Made by a program: the position numbers and the translations under genes. The notes below the pieces were generated by a model. The model made no database searches. It was not told the origin of the DNA and worked only from the letters and a program-made list of their open reading frames with translations. Below, piece after piece: positions 11,564-50,760 of a DNA stretch of 64,000 nt (positions are counted from its first letter, which is position 1; each line of letters opens with the position of its first letter). Location: contig WPIO01000075.1 of assembly GCA_009760855.2 (NCBI GenBank), positions 363,501 to 427,500 on the forward strand, read 5' to 3'. The stretch comes from Cristatella mucedo (Eukaryota > Bryozoa > Phylactolaemata > Cristatellidae).

Positions 11564-11719
11564 TTAACAGCCCTTTTATAGCGACATAAGAGCCTTTATG
11601 GCTATCACCGCCGCCTGCAGTGGCAATACAGGATCGCCCGCCGCAGGATTCGAACCCGTGACCTCGGGACCAAGGGAGTGAAAAGCAATCGCCTTACCTA
11701 GTCTGCCATCACGGCTCAC
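11564..11719 (-). mobile_element. SINE-A copy nested in the hAT element
   Basis: On the - strand there is a tRNA-like head with box B ggattcgaacccg on the + strand (cgggttcgaatcc read on the -), the body (gccactgcaggcggcggtg), then aggctcttatgtcgctataa. It matches the copies at 13,968 and 54,428. Insertion after the hAT dates the SINE as younger. Confidence 0.85.
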
Positions 11720-11962
11720 CAACCGTGTTTTAGGCTGGCGCTCGCAGCACAACGAGCACATGGCCGTTCCCCCCTCCATCCGCATTCCAGCTGCCTCCAG
11801 ATCCACTCTCCCCATTCTGCCTGCCACAGGCGGGGCCAGCCCGGCCTGCAACGCCACTTCAAGGGTGAGTCAGCGTGCCGTGGCTGAGACCGACACATTA
11901 TAAGACCGCTTAAGCTAGGCTTACTGAACTAGCTGTGCTAAGACAACGCAGCAGTCATGAAT

Positions 11963-13230
11963 AGCTACGTCTCAGGTGTCCAAAAAAGAATACTGTCCAG
12001 TAATGAGAAGGCGATTTTGGTAAACTGCGATAACCGTAGTTTAAACCTGGAGGCAGTTCATACTGCAAGTAAAGATTCCGTAGTCATTAACTTTTTTGGG
12101 AAAAACGAGAGCACATGCTTATTTTTTTAAGATCAGCTCTAAGATGGGAAGAACTGAAGAAAGTCTCAGCCATCATTGTCAAACGTGATTCTGCAACAAG
12201 GTTGAGTGCAAAAGTGGAGGCTGTGAAAGCTATCAATCATAGACTGAACAGCGTTGTTGGTCTTTCCGAGCAACTGTCTTAGGACATAAGTGGGAGGCTT
12301 CAAAGAAGAAGTGAATCTGGCAGTCTCCTACATTTTATTTTGAAAATTTTTACTCTATTGCCATTTTGGTATATCATTTTTAGGAATGTTGACCGCAATT
12401 AGAAAAGACTGCAGGATCCAAAGATGAACTTAAAAAATGCCTCTTGCGACCGACCTCCACTCTATTGGGATTGAGTTGTCAAGACTTCGAGAAGACCTCT
12501 TCCGGAACTCACTACTAGATGCCAAAAGGAGATGTGAATTGTGGGCAGTTGCAGTTAAAAGATGAATCCGTCGAAGGACACAGATGCCTTGAGAACTCTC
12601 TCAAGGTGTTGGTCTCACGGCAGAGGAGGAGATGTCGAGTATCGTGAAGGACAGCATGGACTATCTCTGACAAAAAATTACAATTAGATGTTTTCCGGCT
12701 CACAGATCTTGATGCTAAATTTTGTTTCTTGTTGGAAGTTTGGCGCAGCATGGGAAGTAACGGCAGCTATATTGACCTTCGCAAAGCATATTTACAGCTT
12801 CACGTCGACCCTACCCTGAAATACCAAGAAGCTTTTTAAGACACTTGACCGGACCAAACTCCACCAGCACTGTCTAGATCTTGATGGCTTCTGTTGCTCA
12901 GGCGTTGATGGAGTAGAGCTGTACAACAAAATATGTGACTAAAAATGCTTCTTTCCACACTTCACGACTAGGCACTAATGGCACCGCTGGAACACGTGTC
13001 TTTCATTGTCAGTTATGGAGAAGATGTGTTTCCTAACTTGAGAGTTGCCTTGCAAGTTCTTTTCACCATAGCTGCATCAGTTGCCAGCTGTGAACGTTCC
13101 TTCAGCAAGCTGAAGATGATCCTGTCTTAACTGAAATAATCAACTGGGTAAGATCGAATCTCCAATTTGACCTTGTTAAGCATAGAGAAAGACACACTGG
13201 AAGATATTGACTTTTAAACTGTAATAGACC
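11963..13230 (+). pseudogene. hAT transposase relic
   Basis: Broken frames on the + strand give GVQKRILSSNEKAILVNCDN followed by RSLNLEAVH (about 11,975-12,070), FFRSALRWEELKKVS (about 12,125-12,170) and, near the end, VFPNLRVALQVLFTIAASVA then SCERSFSKLKMILS (13,027-13,128) and LSIEKDTLEDIDF (about 13,178-13,216). These correspond in order to the RNase-H-like core and the C-terminal dimerisation region (ASxERxFSxLKxI) of ZMYM-like hAT transposases. Stops, including one right after KMILS, and frameshifts show that it is dead. The N-terminal zinc finger part was not found. Confidence 0.85.
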
Positions 13231-13463
13231 AGTTTGCTACGTTCAAGGTCAGAAAGACTCACATAACTTAAAGCTGTGATAGCTACTTTCTATCTTTACT
13301 AGCTTTAATAAGACTTGCTCGGCTCGATAGGCTTTCTAGCGTGTGTTTTTAGCATTTCTTTGCGGTGGTGCTATTTTGAAGCGCTTTTAGACAATGGGAG
13401 AGGGCGCCATTTCCAGTTTTCTCCCCAGGCGCCGAAAAGTCTCACTACGCCTCTGGTCTGCAC

Positions 13464-13967
13464 TACGGTTTTACGTGATAGTTGCTCATTCTCGTCTGGC
13501 GCCCGACCAAGAATCTTGTTTCTTCGATGAAGTGCAATGCAGTGAAACGGCTACGCCTCGTATAGCACTGCTTTTCACTGCCGCCCGTGGAGCCCCCTGC
13601 TCGTTTCCACGACCTCCCCTCGTCGCGTTTTTGTTTCCTTGGCAAAGCTCTTTTTTCTGCGAGACCACTCTTAGTCAGTCTTCGCTCTGTGCCAGCCGAA
13701 GAACAATGCTCTGGCAATTCTCAGCGTTGTGACAATGCTATATCTCACATGCCGCCGCTTTGCGACGACTGAGAGTACTGATTCACAAGCTCTGCGTTTT
13801 TGCTCTTATCTTTATGCACCTGCGTGTCGACTAACTTCTTGCAGAAAAGAGCAGGCATCGGTCGCTGAGTCGGTGTCGTAAAAGAAAATGCATCGGACTT
13901 CATGTTTCAATTCTCAGATAACTAGACGTTCAATGAAAATTTGAAGTCTGCCTGCGGGTGTACGTTG
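13464..13967. other. Intergenic, no gene recognised
   Basis: Frames of about 60-110 codons overlap on both strands without splice or family support. Nothing could be assigned. Confidence 0.5.
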
Positions 13968-14140
13968 GTGAGCCGTGATGGCACACTGGGTAAGGCGGTT
14001 GCTTTCACGACCTCGGCCTCGAGGTCGTGGGTTCGATTCCTGTGGTGGGTGATTCTTTATCGCCACTGCAAGCGGTGGTGATGGCCGTAAAGGCTCTTCT
14101 GTCGCTATACAAAAAGAGGCTGTTTAATCAGCTAGGATTT
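13968..14140 (+). mobile_element. SINE-A, tRNA-derived, well preserved
   Basis: There is a pol III box A region (tggcacactgggtaaggcgg) and a perfect box B (ggttcgattcc), followed by a body with gccactgcaagcggtggtga and the end ggctcttctgtcgctataca. It is close to the copy at 54,428, which makes it the reference for the family in this window. It does not form a full cloverleaf, so it is not a tRNA gene. Confidence 0.9.
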
Positions 14141-14299
14141 ATTACGCTCCTAGGAGGCGTCGAATACCGGACACTGTCTATCGAACCGCACATACAGTAT
14201 AACTAAAATAAAGTAGCCATGACTGGATCATGAGGCCCGCATGTACTATTTATGGGCCAATTACTTCGAAGGGAATACTACACCAAAGTGTGTTCAAGC

Positions 14300-14516
14300 A
14301 TTTGTGATATTCCATTTTGAGTTCTACCATTCATTACCCACAGGTCTTCCAACCTGTGCAATAAGGCACTTTCAGTTAGTGCAAACTTCCGCGGCTAGGT
14401 TTGTTTTGTCGCGAACATACAACCTGTCACATTGTGTCACTTCTTGCCGACCTGCACCGTCACTCATTTTTAGGTTCCTTAATTACCTCGCTTCAGTCAA
14501 AATATGCGAACAATAG
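14300..14516 (+). mobile_element. L2-type LINE copy D, internal fragment
   Basis: The + frame reads LPTGLPTCAIRHFQLVQTSA, then ARFVLSRTYNLSHCVTS, which matches LLAGLPACAIRRLQLVQNSA of the LINE C-terminal region in other copies. Both ends are lost. Confidence 0.8.
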
Positions 14517-15758
14517 TCGGCCCATGACATACGACGGTACGAATTTTGAAAACTCGGAGATACAAACGCGGCCATGGTAACGCAAAAAAACATCAAAATT
14601 CAAAATGTATCCAAAAAAACTTTTAAAATCAGCCGTCAGTTGATTTGAGAACGCTGCAACCCATCACGAGGGTTTAGAGGAAGAGGGACTTGATCATCCT
14701 CCGCCAAGATCGTCCAACTCCTCGTCACCCTCCTCCCAATAGTATTCAATGTACAGTACTACAACTACCAGCTTCTGTAGGCCAGAAAATAATCCACATT
14801 ATTGTATGTCATTGTAATTCAATTTACTTGTCTTTACTTATTTATTAGTGTTATGTATTTGTGAAAGAATTTAATTTGTTAATCTCTCTGTCTTTGTCAG
14901 ACCGTATCACAGTAGAAGTATCGTAGACGATTCTCGACCTAGGAAAAGTTAACTTACAAAAGGTTTTCCGGTCCCAATCTATTTCTAAGGTCAAGGGCTG
15001 AGTGTACCTCCCAATCAGGTGAGATGCATTACCGCCCACTCGTCTGGCTCGTCACTGAGCTGTGCCTCGAATCAACCTCGCATTGTTTGGAGCGCCGTCG
15101 ACCGTGTCCTAGTTCGTCAGCTCCCAATGACCGGAACTCACTACTACGACGTCACGACATTCACTAAATTGATTGAGTTTAAAAAATCTAAATCTGCACC
15201 TGCTTCTCAAAGCATTTGCTTAATGCATATGAACTGTCCTGTGTAGGCTTACGTTGGCTGACTTCTCCACACGAGCTCCGAAATGCATCTGCCGGTGCAA
15301 GTAACCTCTTGATGCAACGCCAATAAAATATGGCTGGTATTTACTATCGTCTTAGTGTGCAATAACATGTAACTAGAATTTTTTCTAAAGGTAGCTGTAC
15401 TGCCACACTTCTATGAATTCTGCTCTGTAGGGTTATGTCTTCCTGGCTCTCACTAATTCGGCTTGCAACGCAGCTCGTGCTAAATGGGAGAATCTGAAGT
15501 CCTGCAGCCGACAGGTCCCGGGCGGCGCCTGTCTGGTCCAGCGTCCAGCTGCTCGATATCAGCCAACCGCCTGAAACGTCACAGTCGCACTGGGACGACG
15601 TCTACGGTCTGCAGTCGCCAGCGCATATTTATACAGATACCTATATACCTATATTTATATATACATACATACCAACACATATACATCAACCTATAGATAC
15701 ATATGCTTGTATGTAGTATACATATATATAATATATGATATACCTTGGCGATTGGCAG
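14517..15758. other. Intergenic, no gene recognised
   Basis: Nothing conserved was seen up to the AT-rich run at 15,630-15,740. A short GC-rich stretch (15,484-15,620) is open in one frame but has no recognisable domain. Confidence 0.5.
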
Positions 15759-15845
15759 ACAGCGGTCGTTGTGGACGGCCTCAACCTGGACACCAAGGAC
15801 GACCGCCTGTCCAGCGCGCTCCGAGAATTCGGGAAGGTCACGGAC
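15759..15845 (+). CDS. Candidate exon with RRM-like sequence, partial
   Basis: Between an acceptor (gcgattggcag) and a good donor (gtgagg at 15,846) there is a phase-0 stretch of 29 codons. It reads TAVVVDGLNLDTKDDRLSSA and then LREFGKVTD. The pattern, a hydrophobic strand then an amphipathic helix then FGKV, is like the first half of an RNA-recognition motif. No partner exon for the RNP1 half was found nearby, and the flanks are TA-rich microsatellites, so this may be a chance frame or an isolated exon of a gene extending beyond what I could trace. The continuation without splicing is not RRM-like. Confidence 0.22.
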
Positions 15846-15913
15846 GTGAGGACCTCTAGCATCTTCAATATGTTGATTTTGGACCACCGAATTGTCACCA
15901 TGACTGTGGGCAG

Positions 15914-25800: not shown

Positions 25801-28800
25801 AATAAATATAAAGTCTGCTTGTCATCAGAGTTTTAGACTTGAGCGATGCCATTCTGATTGCACTGTTAGTCGTGGTTTGAAGTAGTATTCGCGTTCTGTC
25901 TAGTGAAAAAGAGTGTAGGGAACTATCTCCCTCTTACTTCCGATAAATTTGCAGGTCTTTTTCTTGTCCGAGGAAGTGGCCCAACTCTGGTCAGCCTCTC
26001 TTGTTGCTGCCTCTTGAGTCTAGTTTTGCCCCAGGGGTTCCCGAGAGGAAGCACCCTGACTAGGCCAGGAGTGTCTGTTGATGCAATAAACCTGAGTTGG
26101 TTTGAGCTCTTAGTTGAGAGTGCTAACATGTTTTTATTTTGAGCTGTGTAAGTTTTACTGCAGGCAGTCAAATTATGCTTTTTGAGGACTGCTGTTCTAA
26201 TCATTGTAATTGGGAGCTGTTGCCACCACTTTCCTTTTTCTTCGTAGTTTTGTCTTGGCGTGACAGAGGCTTGACTGTTTTGCATTGATGAATGCCTTGC
26301 TGCAGGATATCCTGAGCAGTTTGCTGCCGATTGCCCTGTCTCGGAATAGTCGACGGTGCACAATTGCTTCTTGATTTGGCTTTCCTATAGGGCCATTGTT
26401 AGTGTGCACGTCAGCAGCTGCTGGGGTTCACTCGCTTGCATTTTTTTTTACAATGGGACAATTTCTACATGTTCAATCCCACACGATTATAATTTACTTG
26501 GCCCGGACCATGAGACATCTTTTGTTGTAATCGCATGGACATGACAGAGTCTGTTGGAGATGTATTTATTGAAATGCTCTGTCAATGTTTATTTGCCTGG
26601 TCTTCCGCACGAGCATGCTTGCTATTTCTGGCCGACTGTCGATCCAAGCCCATCGATGGCTTGTATACCTGCAGGAGATGCTGGGACCGTGGCCCTGATT
26701 GGAGGCCCGCACGCCTATCCTTCGGCGCCGGGTAAGCAGAGCCGGATGCGAGCTGCACGCCGAGCCCCGCCTCTCGGAGGCATCCGTGGCCGACCGTGTG
26801 AGGTGTAGCCTTCATAGGGGAAACTCACTCGACTGCTTCTGCCATTGCAGGTGTCGCTCTGACTGCAGCCGATGGCACGTTGCTATCTCGAGCCGAATCG
26901 CTGGCCGCTGCGGCAGGAGGGGAGTCGGCCACGAGCCGTGCGATCGTGCTCGCCGGCGGCAACCAGGTGGCCATCGTGCCGCGCCGCGCGCCCACCATGC
27001 CCAAGCCACAGTGGCACCCACCATGGAAGCTGTTCCGCGTCATCAGTGGCCATACAGGCTGGGTGCGCTGCCTGGCCGTGGAGCCGGCCAATCAGTGGTT
27101 CGCAACGGGCTCGGCAGATCGCATCGTCAAGATCTGGGACCTCGGGACAGGCGCTCTGAAGCTGTCGCTCACCGGGCACATCAGCACCGTGCGCGGCGTG
27201 GCGGTCAGTGCGCGTCACCCGTTCCTGTTTTCGTGCGGCGAGGACAAGCAGGTCAAGTGCTGGGACTTGGAGCAGAACAAGGTCATTCGCCACTACCACG
27301 GCCACCTTAGCGCCGTTTACGCGATGGACGTCCATCCTACCATCGACCTGCTGGCCACGGCGAGCCGTGATGCCACGTGTCGCATCTGGGACATGCGCAC
27401 GAAAGCGTGCGTGCACACGCTGACTGGCCATACGAATACGGTCGCAGACGTCAAGTGTCAGGCCGTCGAGCCGCAGGTGAGAAGTCCCGGTAACCGGCCC
27501 CCGACCTGTCGGTAGGCTGCCTTTCAGTGCAGTGCTACTTGCAACATAATTGCTGTTCACCTATTCTACCCTAGAGAAAGTGGTTTGTGATGTGTGTTGG
27601 TTGGGCGGAGAGGTAGCAGCGTGAGAGACTTGGCCGACTTTTTTCTTTTGTCCCGTGAAGGCGTGCACGACGTTTACCAATTCATCCGGACCGTAGTTGG
27701 CCGCAGCTTCTCCTTGGGGGGGGGGGAGTGCACGGCCGGCTGCAGCTCCTCGGGAGGCCCAAGCCTGGTCAGGTCTGCCTCTGCAGGTGCTATCGGTCCT
27801 TTTCGGTGCCGTGATTTGCCGTCACTGCTAGCTGGTCCTCGTGGCCAAGATATACTACTAAACATAGCAAATGATGTGTGTACGCAGTGGCCAGTGCAGC
27901 ATAGCGTGCGTGTGTGTGGGTGGGTGCAGTACTTGACTGTCGTGTCTAATTATGTATGCATATTTAGCAGACATTGTGATCTGCATCACTGACTTTTCTG
28001 CTGTAGCTAATAACATGTGGTCACGATTCTACTGTACGTCTCTGGGATCTGGCTGCCGGCAAGTGTCGTGTTACCCTCACTAATCATAAGAAGAGTGTGC
28101 GCGCAGTCACCCTGCATCCCACTCAGTAAGTCGCATGCCAGCATTCAATCTTGCCTCATTTGTGCATCTGCTTTTTGTCAATGATTTTTCATGGTTGCAA
28201 CAATACTGCCCTTGCCATGTGAGGCCATGTAGTGCAGTATGGATGAGATTTAGTAGCAAGCCCTCCCACCGGAAAGCTGATGTTCATGTATTCCTTCATG
28301 TGTTCCTTTGATTGGATAAGACCAGTGGTAACAACATGCTTCAATCTTGCGAAGCCTTCGCTGCTTCCGAGACGACGAACGATGAAATGACAAGAGGACA
28401 CATCTTGGAAATGCCCCACTCACACTTGAGTTCGAGTAAAAGTTCTTGCGATTTTGGTCTCTGTAGTCTTATTCTTAAAATATGTTTTAAAATGTCAACT
28501 TTTTAGGTTTAGTCGGTTGATAGTAATAAAAAAAGGCATTTTTTCTGTGAGTACGGTGCTCTTCGGGCCCTGTTTGTTGGTAGCATTATGATGTAGATAT
28601 TGTTTCCATCGTTAAGCGACTACTCGTTAGTCTGCTAGACCATCATCCTTGCGGCCTGCAGGGCCCTGGGAAATAGGCCCATTTCCAAATGATGTAATTC
28701 CCCGTGACACAGCTGTTGCTGGGTTAACGGGTTTTCCTATACGTCTCAGCAGCAGTCCAATCCAGCCACCGATTCGGACAGTCGATTTACCTGCGAACAT

Positions 28801-30568
28801 TTGGGGAAGCAGTTGTGAGTGCTTCGCAAGAGCGAGATGCTGACTTGGGCTGCTGCTCCTCCTCCTCCTGCTCAGTCGCTCTCTGCATTTGTGGTGTGCT
28901 TTCGTTTGCTCGCTGTGGCCACAGTGCCGCTGGCTCGGTCGAGGCGGAAGTCGGTCGGTGCACCGAGTTGCATCGCACCCGGTTCTTTTTCTCAGATACA
29001 CTTTTGCATCTGCTTCGCCGGACAACATCAAGCAGTGGAAGTTTCCGGACGGAAATTTCATTCAGAACCTGCCCGGTCATAATGCAATCGTCAATGCGCT
29101 GGCTGTGAACCCTGAGGGAGTGCTGGTCTCCGGTGGTGAGCCTGCTACGCACGCTGTGGCGCCCCGCTCCGAGCCTCTCCCCAGCGAGTGCCTCGGACCG
29201 TGCCGCCGCGCTTGTTCGCGACGACCTTTCAAGCACCACTGCTTGCGATAGCCGGAGGGTGTTTGTATGAAGGTGTGCCGATTTCTTTGCTGCGTTTTCC
29301 CACGCCGTGTGTTTGCGCAGCACGCACTGTGCGGTTGCTCTGCATGCCACCCAGCTCTGGGCCGCGGCTTTGTGGCAGAGGAACCGAGCTGCGCTAGCCA
29401 AACTGTGTCGGCGCTACTGCACTGCTCGGCACTGGGTTTGCGATTGCAGCCGACAACGGGACGCTGTACTTATGGGACTGGCGGTCGGGCTACAATTTCC
29501 AGCGAGTGCAGTCAGCCGTGCAGCCGGGCTCACTGGACTCGGAGAACGGCATCTTTGCGATGACGTTCGACCAGAGCGGCACGCGACTGCTCACTGCGGA
29601 AGCCGACAAGACGATCAAAGTGTACAAGGAGGACGATAGCGCCGTAAGTGGCTCGTTGTGGCACGCCTTCCTGCCTGCACGATCGGTCTTGTGGTTCCTT
29701 GTATCGCCCGTGCTCAGCTGCTGCCAGGGACGCTGGTGGTGCGAGTGCTGCCAAGTGTGCAGTCCCTGCTGCTCAGTGGATCAACAAACGTCTTTCTGTC
29801 ATTTCTTTCACGTGGTTACTTCCCCCTGCACAGAGAGTGAATGAGCCCCAGAGAGCGTGCAGGGCAGGTGTGCGCCCACGCGTTTGCGCTGGAGGGATCG
29901 AGTGCCGGCATCCGAAACTGCGGTCCTCCTTTTATTGACCACTGCTAAGTGGCGACCATCGCCATGAGGGGTCTTCTGCCACCATATAAATGTGGCTGCT
30001 AAATCAGCTCTCAACTGATTACCATGCCCCGCCCTGCCCCCCCCGTATCAATTTTTCGTGTTTGCCATTCGCTTTCTCGGCTCCCTAGAAGGCGAGGGCC
30101 CCTTCATAGGTCGTTGCACGACCAAAAGCACAGTTTGCGCGAGATCAGCAGTGTGTCGTGGGAGCTGCCCGAGCCACATTGTCTTCTAAGGCACATCTCT
30201 GTCACTGCACACAGCCGCCCCTGAGCCACCTGCTGCAGCCCGACTTGTCGCGTACCTTGTCGTTTGCTTGCAAGGCGAGCCAAGGTCGGGTGACGCTGGT
30301 GATAGTCACCGTTTTGGGTCGTGGCGTATGCTGCCGCTTCCCCTTCTTTCTGCTGAGTCTCTTACTTTGCCGAGAGTGCCAGTGTCCTGAGTGAGTCTCC
30401 TTGTGTCCAGATCCTGCGTTCTCCTGAGCAGCTGCTTCTCTCCCTCTTCCAATTCTGATGCCCTACTCGTTTTTTGCCTTTTTGTGACTGCGCTCGTTTT
30501 TGTTTCAGACTGAGGAAACACACCCGCTCAACTGGAAGCCAGGTCTTCTGAAAGGGAAGAAGTTCTAG
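22808..30568 (+). CDS. PLRG1: PLRG1 / Prp46, WD40 spliceosome subunit, complete nine-exon gene
   Basis: PLRG1 is the WD40 protein of the Prp19-CDC5L (NTC) complex and acts in the nucleus in spliceosome activation. Exons: 22,808-22,819; 22,911-23,017; 24,516-24,634; 26,675-26,731; 26,851-27,476; 28,007-28,125; 28,996-29,135; 29,450-29,643; 30,509-30,568. All introns are GT-AG and phases agree, giving 477 residues (human about 514). Residues 7-20 read [14 protein letters not shown] and then RTHDMF, the conserved N-terminus. The linker to about 145 is short and alanine-rich. [20 protein letters not shown] (147-166) starts a seven-bladed WD40 propeller: KIWD 192-195, KCWD 234-237, RIWD 276-279, RLWD 318-321, then NIKQW 357-361, LYLWDW and TIKVY. 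It ends [17 protein letters not shown]. Exon 1 has only four codons; a donor after codon 2 (GTG then gttgag) is the alternative. Introns are 91 to 2,040 bases and hold one SINE-B and one SINE-A. No canonical AATAAA was seen just downstream. Confidence 0.97.
23571..23694 (+). mobile_element. SINE-B in PLRG1 intron 2
   Basis: The head gctggtttggtccagcggat then aaggtgctcgcc is followed by box B ggctcgagcccc and the tail gaagcgcctgaatagagatt then aagttctcttggggc, the clearest LINE-like tail in the family. It is followed by a TA-rich run (23,690-23,760). It is in the same orientation as the gene. Confidence 0.85.
29875..30010 (+). mobile_element. SINE-A, diverged, in PLRG1 intron 8
   Basis: The body ccactgctaagtggcgacca is followed by ggtcttctgccaccatataa and gctgctaaatcagct, which line up with the end of SINE-A at 13,968. 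The tRNA head is strongly diverged. Confidence 0.55.
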
Positions 30569-43036: not shown

Positions 43037-43042
43037 TTTATT
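43037..43042 (-). promoter_or_regulatory. Polyadenylation signal for the secreted-peptide gene
   Basis: On the - strand the hexamer reads AATAAA, about 460 bases after the stop codon at 43,501. It is the first canonical hexamer that I see downstream in a GC-rich stretch. Confidence 0.45.
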
Positions 43043-43500: not shown

Positions 43501-46500
43501 CTACGCGTCGCGCTCGACCTTGAAGAAGCTGGCCTCCGTCGTCGTCGTCATCGTCGCGGCGGAGGCGTCGTCCGCGACCTCCGAAGAAGACTGCTTCTCC
43601 GACAGGCACGCCTTGCGGAAGATCCTCTCGAGCCGCGCGAGGACGAGCGCCATTTCGTGGCCGCGGCAGCGCGGGTCGAGCCGCTGCGTCTTCACGCAGC
43701 CCAGTATGCTGCAGGCGCTCAGCTCCTCGAACGGCTCGTAGAGGCAGTGCGTCGAACGACAATGATGCTTCCGGCCTGCCAGCGAGGTGCACGAGCGCGC
43801 GCGTTCGTCAGCTGCCGCCGAGACCCTTCTCGAGGCGCTGCTGCTGCTGCTCTGGCGCTCGAGAAAAAGCAGGGTTACAGCGACGCGGCGGCCATGCAGC
43901 TGCGACGGTGCTGCCGAGCTTTTTGAAGCGATGGCTGACTCCCGACCTCGGTCGAGCCAGACGCTAACTGCGGGTAGCCGGTGCGCGACGTCGTCGATAA
44001 ACGGCAGAATGCGTACCACTGCTCGGAACTATCGCTCGGAGCTATCGCTCGGACTTGCGTAATAATAATAACAATAATAATGCACTTGATAAAGCGCCCT
44101 CAGATAACTCAATATCTTTCTAGGCGCTTTACATTTGCTGTAAAGTGAAATGCAATTGAATGGTGAGTAAAATCATGCTTGATAAACAAACAACATGAAT
44201 AACATGGTTAGGGGTGACATGCACAGGGTCAGCATGCAAATGTGGTTAGTGGCAGCATGCAGTGTTAGCACGCATAAGCACATCAAGGACGAATCACAAG
44301 GACCCACTAAATGCTGTCCTAAATAGGTGTTTTTAAGTTCCTTTTAAATGTGGTCAGGTCAGGGGACGTTCTGACGCAGGTCGGGAGGGAGTTCCAGGCT
44401 TTGGGAGCATACGAACTAAATGCACGGTCTCCAAAGGATTTAAGGTTTGTACGAGGTATTTGTTGACTGTTGGATTCCGAGAAGCGGGTGGTCCGATGCT
44501 TGGCCTGATGGGGGAATATATCTGAGAGATAGGCTGGAGCCATAGAATGAAGGGACCTAAAAGTGAGCGACAAAACCTTGAAGTCAATCCGTTGCTTGAC
44601 TGGTAGCCAGTGCAGGTCGGTGAGAAGTGGAGTAATGTGGCAACTGCGACGCTCATGACAGACAAGCCTAGCTGCAGAGTTTTGCACCAGCTGCAATCGC
44701 CTGATCGCACATGCATGTAGGCCAGTAAGCAGTGAGTTGCAGAAGTCTAGACAGGATGTCACAAATGCATGGACGAACTTAGCCGTGGTCTCCTTATCTA
44801 AACAAGCCCAAATTTTAGCAATGTTATGTAGCTGAAAGTAGGCAGAGTAGGCTGTGGAGCTGATATGGTCGTCTAACGAGAGGTCACTCTGGAACATGAC
44901 ACCTAGATTTCGAGCTGATTTAACAGGAGATATGCTGGCAGAGCCAATTTTGAGCTTCAGCCTTTCCAATTTCTGAATCAGACTGGGTTTGCCCATAACT
45001 AGTAAGTTAGTTTTATCATCGTTTAGTTTTAGAAAATTTGCTGCCATCCTTGTGCGGATGTCATCAATACATGCAGTAAGAGAGTGGAGAGAATTCGAGG
45101 TGCTCGAAGGCTGGGAGGGATCGAAGCAAAGGTACAACTGAGTGTCATCCGCATAGAAGTGAAAGCCTAGATTGTGCTCGGCAATCACATCCGTTCCGGT
45201 CGGCGCTGTAACACACGAAGACCAGCAACCGAACTCTAATGGCCACGTACTGCGACGGCACGAGGGAGGCTTTTCCGAGACAGCTCGTGCTATACGGTGG
45301 CGTCCGCTGCTGGCGCCTACAATAGTGCTGTGCTTGGCTGAAGTAGCCTTCTTCCGAAAACTCTTCGCCGTTGGACTCACTTCGGGTCTTGGCCGTGGCG
45401 GGAGGCACTCGCGCTTCACGAGCCAGGTCGTGGTTTTGCTTCACGAGCCAGGTCGTGGTTTTGCTTCACGAGCCAGGTCGTGGTTCGGCAGCGGGAAATC
45501 CCTTATCGCCCACAGCCCACGTTGGCGACGACCGCTAAGCCTCTTCCAACCCTACGTTAATGAGGCTGATAATGCAGCTAACCTTTACATGCATATTCTT
45601 TTTTTTACCATGCCGGCTTTCGGCTTGCATATACCGGGGGAGTATTAGGCTAGCAGACACGGAGGGGAGGGGCATATTGGGCTCGCTGTGAGAGATCGGA
45701 ACTTCGTTCTGCTGCTCTGAAGTCGCTCGCAAACCCTGATCTCGGAGCCCTTCGCCAATGAGTGTTGAAGCTCATCGAAGTGAGGCTCAGAGACGTTCAC
45801 GACGCGCGATGCTTGCACCAATTGCGAAGCCCATACACCAGACTGTCGGGAAAACGGTTGTCAAATAGTAGTAGTAATACTACTACTAATAATTTTATTA
45901 TTATTATTATGATTTTACTAAGCCATTTAACAATGGCCTAAGAGAATTGAGTTCATGCAAGCGCTTTACACTTTTCTGGACGAGACGCCTTAACGACATG
46001 CATGTCAGACATTGTGCACGCTTAGACGAGCGTGCAAAAACAGCTATACTCACCGGGACCACTGGCCAGGAATCCCTAGCCGGTCGTACGCACCGAGTCG
46101 CACACGAGCAAGCACACAAAAGCACACAGGAACAAGCGAGATTTGAGGGCCGGCAGGTGCAATGACAAAAGTGTCAGTTGGCGACAGCAGCGCCTAATCG
46201 CCCGAGCTCGGCGCTGCGGCGGCCGAGAAGGAGTGGCGACGGCCGGAGGCAGCTCGACCAGCCGCCGCCACTTGACGCCGCAACGCGACTAGGCCACTTA
46301 CGCGACGTGAAAGCCATGCGACAAGCCGTGCGCCGATCGCGAGCGCGGAACGCCGGAGGGAGGCGAACGCCATCGCTCACGGCCCCGCGGGCATCGCGCG
46401 CGCCCTCTGCAGGTCGCGGGCTCGTCCAGAGGGCGCTGCCTGTCCCACCGGGAATGAGCTAGCCGGACCGCGACGCGCGGCCCCGGTGCCCGTCTCGGTC

Positions 46501-46704
46501 CTTTCCTCGAGGCCCCGCCTTCGCGGCGGAAAGGCCGGTCGACGGGCGAGACGGGGTGGGGGGGGTGGCGCTCGGCGGTCGTGACGAAATCGCGGGAAGG
46601 TGCACCTGGCAGCTGAGCGGCTTACCTTTGTGGGTCGTGTAGCAGTCGCCCAGCGTCAGGCAGCAGACGGCCACGACGAAAATGCACAGCAGGAGGCGAG
46701 TCAT
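43501..46704 (-). CDS. Predicted secreted cysteine-rich protein, two exons, family unknown
   Basis: Exon 1 (46,704-46,626) encodes MTRLLLCIFVVAVCCLTLGD then CYTTHK, a typical signal peptide with likely cleavage near residue 19. It ends in phase 1 at a strong donor (gtaagc). Exon 2 (43,775-43,501) follows an acceptor (cacctcgctggcag), starts in the matching phase and ends at a TAG. The junction makes a glycine, and the product is 117 residues. Seven cysteines lie at 21, 32, 37, 48, 53, 63 and 83 (HHCRSTHCLYEPFEELSAC, then GC, RC, KAC). Residues 66-83 could form an amphipathic helix, and the tail (88-117) is Ser/Thr/Ala-rich and ends KVERDA. An acceptor (ttggttgcag) seven bases before the ATG suggests a 5' UTR intron. 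I do not recognise the family; cytokine-, hormone- or defence-like roles are guesses. Extra exons in the 2.85 kb intron cannot be excluded. Confidence 0.6.
44061..45260 (-). mobile_element. L2-type LINE copy I with intact partial ORF and 5' extension
   Basis: On the - strand one uninterrupted frame (45,419-44,319, 366 codons) includes FHFYADDTQLYLCFDPSQPS with the RT catalytic YADD box (about residues 89-92), MAANFLKLNDDKTNLLVMGK, SARNLGVMFQSDLSLDDHIS and HWLPVKQRIDFKVLSLTF. The 3' untranslated stretch and AAT tail reach 44,061. Upstream of the codons for DVIAEHN the sequence leaves the LINE and enters an extension of about 75 bases (to 45,260) shared with copy J. It sits in the intron of the secreted-peptide gene, on the same strand. 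Confidence 0.9.
45414..45486. repeat. 25-bp tandem repeat, three units
   Basis: Three units of cttcacgagccaggtcgtgg plus ttttg (the last ends tt only) are nearly identical, which indicates recent duplication. Confidence 0.92.
45870..46010 (-). mobile_element. Possible 3' end of a related LINE family
   Basis: A TAG/ATT-rich tail is followed by gagaattgagttcatgcaag and cgctttacacttttctg, loosely like the complement of the main LINE's 3' end. The following sequence does not match the main family. Confidence 0.3.
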
Positions 46705-46789
46705 GGACGCGCTGCAACCAACGCACGCGGAGCCGTGGATCGCGTAGAGGAAACCGGTATAATGCTGTTCGCTGTAACGCTAATGCTAG

Positions 46790-49238: not shown

Positions 49239-49315
49239 AGCCACCTTTACCAATCGTCTGTCCAGCCACCCGCGCCGCGGCGCGGCTGGCTGGACAGACG
49301 ATTGGTAAAGTGGCT
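49239..49315. repeat. Near-perfect inverted repeat (38-bp arms)
   Basis: The left arm begins agccacctttaccaatcgtc. The right arm ends gacgattggtaaagtggct. The arms meet around gccgcggcgc near 49,277 with one mismatch and one extra base. As RNA or extruded DNA this would form a long stable hairpin. Confidence 0.9.
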
Positions 49316-49975: not shown

Positions 49976-50760
49976 CGCGTTTGGCGCGGGCGCGGCGAGC
50001 GGCGACAGACGCGAGTGCCGGCCGCCGTCGGCGGTCGCTGGCGGCATGAGTCGCCGGGTGCGGCTGCGGCGGTGGCGGGGGGGGGGGGCCTTCTCCTGGC
50101 ATACCGAAGGCGGAGGCGGGCGAATGGCTGCGAGTCCAATCGTGCGGGGTCGCGAGGCCGCGAACCAAGCATAGCTGCAACGCTCGCTCGCTCCCGCCGC
50201 GGCGAGGCAGTGTCTCGTTCGCACGGGAGATCTCGGCCTGTCCGCGCGGCTTCCGCCCGCGCGCCGCCGCCACCTCCGCCATCCCTCTATTCCTGCCGCG
50301 AGCAACCGGGCCGCAGTGCTACGAACCGCCTCCGCTGCCGCCCGCCGGAAATTGGCGGCGAGGGCGGCGCGAATTTCTATCTCGCGACGCCGAGCGCTGA
50401 GTTTCGAGCGCGCCCGCGCACGCCCGCGCGAGGTTTCGCGGCGCTGCGAGCGAGCGCGCATGGCCCACTCTCGCTCGGAGCGGGCCGCCGACCTCGGCGG
50501 CCCGCTCCGAGCGGAGTTTTTGCTGAAAAGCCGCGCGCTATCGGGACCGGACGCTGGCCTGAGAGAACGGTCGTGTGCTTGAAAGGCGAGCAATTTGATT
50601 GGTACGTTCGAAGAAAAAACGTAGACTAATCCGCAACGAAGCTGGATATTTGCACTGCCGATATTGAGGATTTTTTCGGGTGGCATCAGGTGATTCCACC
50701 GCAACCTCTCCCCCTCCGAGCCAGGTCGGACCGTCGTCGCCGCCGCCATGGCCGCAGCAC

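Follow-up and report, generated by a model that had tools for sequence, protein, structure and literature searches.

Do two open stretches on the minus strand of this DNA, separated by a putative intron, belong to a single gene and, if so, what kind of protein might that gene encode? The original prediction, made for the 64,000-nucleotide stretch analysed here (referred to throughout, at its full length, as 'the window'), had joined them into a secreted, cysteine-rich protein; its coordinates, reading phases, 117-residue peptide and downstream AATAAA were all reproduced from the sequence (Table 1). Bringing together the findings set out below, we consider it very likely that the two exons make up one gene, here termed gene A, which is a member of a small family. 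It also seems probable that gene A is a real protein gene, in a family of at least three, whose product is a soluble, secreted three-disulfide peptide with short helices, diffusible and acting extracellularly.

Table 1. Features of gene A and its paralogues B and C; positions are those of the window unless a contig (C) or locus (L) is named, and a slash marks a predicted exon boundary.
Feature	Position	Strand	Details
Gene A, exon 1	46626..46704	-	79 nt; start codon, predicted signal peptide MTRLLLCIFVVAVCCLTLGDCYTTHK, first base of a split codon (phase 1)
Gene A, splice donor region	46617..46625	-	GTAAGCCGC (AAAG/GTAAGC); matches the donor consensus used at 8/9
Gene A, intron	43776..46625	-	2,850 bp; between exons 1 and 2
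Gene A, exon 2	43501..43775	-	275 nt; remainder of the split codon, six-cysteine domain, tail, stop TAG
Gene A, six-cysteine core	43606..43761	-	First to sixth Cys; C-x4-C-x10-C-x4-C-x9-C-x19-C
LINE reverse-transcriptase fragment	44319..45440	-	Same strand as gene A; partial RVT_1 match, E 0.0023
AATAAA polyadenylation signal	43037..43042	-	About 460 nt past the stop of gene A
Gene A, acceptor-like site	46712-46730	-	Just 5' of the start codon
Gene B	Contig C177, L004 6246-6306 and 8653-8825		Predicted signal peptide MIGALFLVAAVASTAVLQVQ, then G-CISDC...; phase-1 intron, 2,346 bp
Gene B, acceptor-like site	L004 6191-6216		Strongest of the three; CTCTTCCCTTCTACAG
Gene C	C660 433843-433780 and 433649-433477 (L010)	-	MHAILVLAAASFALCAATENT, then D-CFNKC...; phase-1 intron, 130 bp
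Gene C, acceptor-like site	C660 about 433849 (L010)	-	Just 5' of the start codon

Within exon 1 of gene A, the best 12-residue stretch is made up entirely of strong hydrophobics (12/12), and it is from hydrophobicity that a signal peptide is predicted here, as it is for genes B and C. The joined product carries cysteines at residues 7, 14, 15, 21, 32, 37, 48, 53, 63 and 83; beyond the last of these comes a tail of 34 residues, 29 longer than those of B and C, which contains simple repeats, and four additional residues, relative to B and C, stand ahead of the first core cysteine. The acceptor of exon 2 reads GGCAG/GC, with a weak pyrimidine stretch, and a single AATAAA begins (at 43042) in the first 1 kb past the stop codon. 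An acceptor-like CAG or TAG also lies shortly 5' of the start codon in all three genes, and could mark either an intron in the 5' UTR or a site of spliced-leader addition.

Both exons of gene A carry a marked compositional signature. By codon position, GC is 0.50/0.42/0.88 for exon 1 and 0.59/0.50/0.91 for exon 2, and a yardstick is provided by two PLRG1 exons in the same window (0.61/0.50/0.82 and 0.56/0.44/0.79); GC-rich third positions of this kind are thus a signature of true exons in this DNA. The third-position excess of exon 2 is attained by just 11 of the window's 8117 stop-free frames of 270 nt, and all 11 cluster at two places, either on exon 2 or on the frame antisense to it; the cysteine core, whose value is reached by 127 of the window's 18,502 171-nt frames, and exon 1, with 68 of 47,344 78-nt frames, are less exceptional. 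Since this is a GC-rich stretch, with the plus strand likewise open opposite exon 2, open frames by themselves mean little at this point, and the antisense frame mirrors the same codons; it is because of the paralogues that the minus strand is chosen. In a scan of 274 kb around gene A (the window and a further 21 stretches), exon 2 ranks fifth, exon 1 twenty-first and exon 2 of gene C twenty-eighth among the 30 coding-like segments listed, a list that mixes recognisable exons, simple-sequence stretches and the antisense of exon 2. Third-position G+C is highest in A, at 0.88-0.91 versus 0.82 and 0.76 in B and C. The PLRG1 exons, of a conserved WD40 splicing factor, lie at 26802-27512 and 29398-29841 on the plus strand of the window, the first of them with a phmmer match to PDB at E 5e-111.

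Gene A is not single; at least three paralogues, itself included, are present in the genome. With A, B and C as queries against the assembly (G000; 572,011,866 bases in 688 contigs), and only the best candidates scored, A retrieved B on another contig (E 4.3e-4 at 34% with the whole protein, E 1.3e-3 with the core), B retrieved both C (E 4.8e-4, 40%) and A (E 2.1e-3), and C retrieved B (E 2.4e-4, 42%); in neither direction did A and C retrieve each other. Gene C lies on the same contig and strand as A, 26 kb off and some 6 kb outside the right end of the window. In each of the three genes (3/3) a predicted signal-peptide exon, a phase-1 junction and then a single exon that holds six cysteines and the stop codon follow one another, the splicing itself being predicted; the two-exon model first put forward for A is thus supported by anatomy that was not used to derive it. 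Intron lengths are 2,850 bp in A, 2,346 bp in B and 130 bp in C, and the shortness of the last suggests that intron length is secondary.

No further member was found by a three-sequence HMM run on 5443 ORF segments (at least 35 aa) from 34 sequences, these being the window and 33 loci, including 274 kb of C660; the next score belonged to a segment of L009. Three candidates for a fourth member were rejected: one on C676 (L008; E 0.25), with internal stops and lying, as judged by eye, amid cytochrome b5 reductase-like exons; one on C486 (L009; E 1.3, HMM E 0.0018), with an internal stop; and one on C22 (L039; E 0.025), which has an internal stop and adjoins simple repeats. In a viral collection 28 stretches fitted a pattern, as did 12 in prokaryote genomes, and none of either set was confirmed as belonging to the family. 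Beyond gene C, at about 450-473 kb on the minus strand of C660 (L015 and L017), lie exons that resemble, by eye only, a Na+/H+ exchanger.

How readily might a signal-like exon be found by chance? A single set of criteria (including a phase-1 donor), applied to all three genes and fixed only after their exons were known, gave 44 candidate starts in 557,604 bases on both strands, or 0.079 per kb per strand, with A, B and C included in the count. Exactly one candidate was found 5' of each cysteine exon, in 5.9 kb scanned for A and 3.7 kb scanned for each of the other two.

The family shares a cysteine 'ladder'. Gaps between successive cysteines run 4/10/4/9/19 in A, while B and C both have 3/10/4/9/19, such that the pattern C-x3/4-C-x10-C-x4-C-x9-C-x19-C is held within the stop-bearing exon of all three genes. 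Between the cysteines there is little agreement, with 12/47 (AB), 7/47 (AC) and 12/47 (BC) non-cysteine residues matching; saying this, the observed identity (cysteines included) was attained in 0 (AB), 2 (AC) and 0 (BC) per 100,000 residue shuffles. Across 40 simulated 64-kb windows, a less strict six-cysteine pattern came up twice in total; the real window has it once, at gene A, and it also fits simple-repeat stretches at other loci. Identical residues are often written with different codons (AB 10/18, AC 5/13, BC 7/18), and identity by codon position is 0.42/0.53/0.38 for AB, 0.40/0.42/0.36 for AC and 0.49/0.55/0.53 for BC; without a clear drop at the third position, purifying selection on the protein is unsupported by this measure, although a third-position G/C bias may hide such a signal among the three genes.

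The ladder also bears on the original count of seven cysteines after residue 20 in gene A, which stands, and on the room for a dimer seen in that odd number, of which the family gives no sign: the family core has an even number of cysteines and hence needs no dimer, and the extra residue, Cys21, falls outside the pattern, aligns with no mature-part cysteine of B or C and is private to A. The -3,-1 rule puts the signal cut of gene A after Gly19 or Cys21, and Cys21 thus likely sits at the cleavage site.

The intron of gene A holds a reverse-transcriptase fragment of a LINE, which by its look we take to be CR1-like; the RVT_1 match scores 18.1 bits against a Pfam cut-off of 29.6, and is therefore below it. 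A short ATT-rich stretch (44061-44080) comes after the fragment. Elsewhere in the window are a near-perfect, loopless palindrome of 66 bp (49245-49310; 33-nt arms, 97%) and a second with 20-nt arms (50472-50513). At L004 2148-2335, on the contig of gene B, sits a short hAT-like element, its ends CAGYGGTTCTCAACCT, with a target duplication of 8 bp in which 7/8 positions match; it resembles the SPACE INVADERS elements, and no copy of its end was found within the window.

The assembly also includes a mitochondrial contig (C688; 21,008 bp, of which about 14.3 kb was read), in which, from cox1 as judged by eye, AGR as serine, AAA as lysine and ATA as methionine fit best. With genes named by eye from their translations and tRNAs called by ARAGORN, one strand carries the block nad1-nad6-cob-nad4L-nad4-nad5, trnH lying between nad4 and nad5 and trnF following nad5; elsewhere on the same strand runs cox3-K-A-N-atp6-cox1-nad3, and trnT is called on the opposite strand. 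An order like that of the nad1-nad5 block is found in chitons and many snails. The host is accordingly taken to be an invertebrate, probably a lophotrochozoan and perhaps a mollusc. The nad5 gene, placed here between trnF and trnH, has moved in vermetids, as far as the excerpt of one study goes (PMC3091637), and on this ground a vermetid snail was rejected as the source. At about 11632-15900 of the contig (L036 from 7433 into L034), a 2,115-bp stretch is present as two tandem copies with identical open frames, which may be either a real repeat or an artefact of assembly.

Searches of Pfam, NCBIfam and PDB sequences with A, B and C returned no convincing relative, with every returned line at E 0.09 or above; matches to Alpha-mann_mid (Pfam, E 0.14), ETFQO_UQ-bd (Pfam, E 0.09) and UBR4 (PDB sequences, E 0.13) are at chance level. 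This is consistent with the original reading of gene A as an unmatched, undescribed secreted factor, and no description of the family was found in 5.39 million open-licence papers searched by cysteine spacing and by peptide fragments. Very likely, then, this is a real gene in a small family that none of these libraries matches, new as a family whilst ordinary as a kind; that the peptide is lineage-restricted is, as far as these libraries reach, the most likely case. Single-sequence structure predictions were too poor for a fold search (mean pLDDT 48 for the 90 aa of exon 2, and 47 for the 61-aa core). Both of these poor models, which are of the same sequence, place a short helix at around residues 20-28 and a second, longer helix that starts at 41 and ends at 57-59 (numbered on the exon 2 fragment), reaching the sixth cysteine.

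From these observations we suggest how the product of gene A might operate. The signal peptide of exon 1 would direct it into the secretory pathway, with cleavage near residues 19-21; the six conserved cysteines would pair to give three disulfides, holding the short helices; and the folded peptide would then be released to act outside the cell, as a ligand or as a gland-secreted effector. With divergent surfaces set upon a fixed cysteine ladder, each paralogue may face a different, or changing, partner. A gene in which a signal exon meets a single cysteine exon at a phase-1 join, and in which the stretches between the cysteines change fast, has the build known from secreted peptides diversified by duplication. 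More tentatively, we would extend this proposal to an undescribed family of extracellular ligands or effectors that has a new three-disulfide helical fold, was born within its lineage and is diversifying through duplication.

A narrower form of the same explanation, which we judge somewhat unlikely, would make the peptide a glandular effector, produced in quantity as a component of venom, mucus or saliva and diversified by duplication. Three genes, rather than a large array, are fewer than such a use would suggest, there is no separate propeptide exon, and the cysteine spacing matched no framework described in the open-licence literature; set against this are the fast divergence amid conserved cysteines, the shortness of the secreted precursors (B and C being without an obvious pro-region), the presence of TATATAAAG about 90 nt 5' of the start codon in the signal exon of B, and the combination of phase-1 first intron and signal-like first exon, which is also seen in most of the conotoxin superfamilies covered by the excerpt of one study (PMC3862624).

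That the peptides serve in host defence, as antimicrobials, appears improbable to us, even though they are small, cysteine-rich, duplicated and predicted to be secreted. Invertebrate defensins are likewise small secreted peptides with six cysteines, and a motif given for butterfly defensins includes C-x3-C-x10-C-x4-C (PMC8427292, in excerpt), but the coincidence is partial: that motif continues C-x1-C, whereas the next gaps in A, B and C are 9 and 19, leaving them without the C-x-C ending and with a last gap of 19 residues that is helical in the two poor models. Nor is charge conserved, the net charge of the core being +3 in A, -2 in B and -3 in C; these are not uniformly cationic membrane peptides, which argues against a common membrane-lytic action, and Pfam gave no convincing match.

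Could the exons of gene A instead derive from different genes, or A be a decaying copy, with B and C the working ones? The low agreement of A with C, the weak acceptor, the simple-repeat tail and the LINE sequence within the intron would all fit, but both exons are open and exceed those of B and C in third-position G+C, the donor matches at 8/9, and a lone signal-exon candidate lies in the right phase; we therefore hold this to be very improbable. A degenerate thrombospondin type 1 repeat is barely credible: a two-sequence profile did match the F-spondin repeat (PDB 1szl) at E 0.33, across a shared C-x10-C-x4-C with similar flanking letters, but the match was lost once C joined the profile, the conserved tryptophan ladder is absent from A, B and C (the cores hold 0, 1 and 0 tryptophans, respectively), and Pfam gave no such match.

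On our preferred reading, of a secreted three-disulfide peptide family, the peptide may serve as a hormone-like ligand, a glandular product or a defensive peptide. What the locus provides is a split, orphan secreted-peptide gene that was recognisable from raw DNA and then backed by the anatomy of its paralogues, and, in a fixed cysteine ladder with near-free residues between, a compact test case for how families of secreted peptides originate and diverge. Should the fold prove to be new, a scaffold would be added to those described; should the peptide be a hormone or gland product, a new factor would be named for the animal group concerned.

Finally, it is useful to set the family beside known systems. 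Crustacean hyperglycaemic hormone and eclosion hormone are six-cysteine, helical, secreted hormones, with cysteine spacings that differ from those of A, B and C, and none of the three has a Pfam match to either. Searches of Pfam and PDB sequences, so far as they include conotoxins, gave no match to them, and the likeness is one of gene build: in conotoxin genes, as in A, B and C, a signal-like first exon and a phase-1 first intron precede a variable mature part, the first exon corresponding approximately to the signal sequence, with the phase-1 intron found in most superfamilies studied (PMC3862624). To the extent that the excerpt of that study covers them, 8/9 conotoxin superfamilies have three exons, one of which encodes a pro-region, whereas in A, B and C there is no pro-region exon and a single exon holds everything past the signal.
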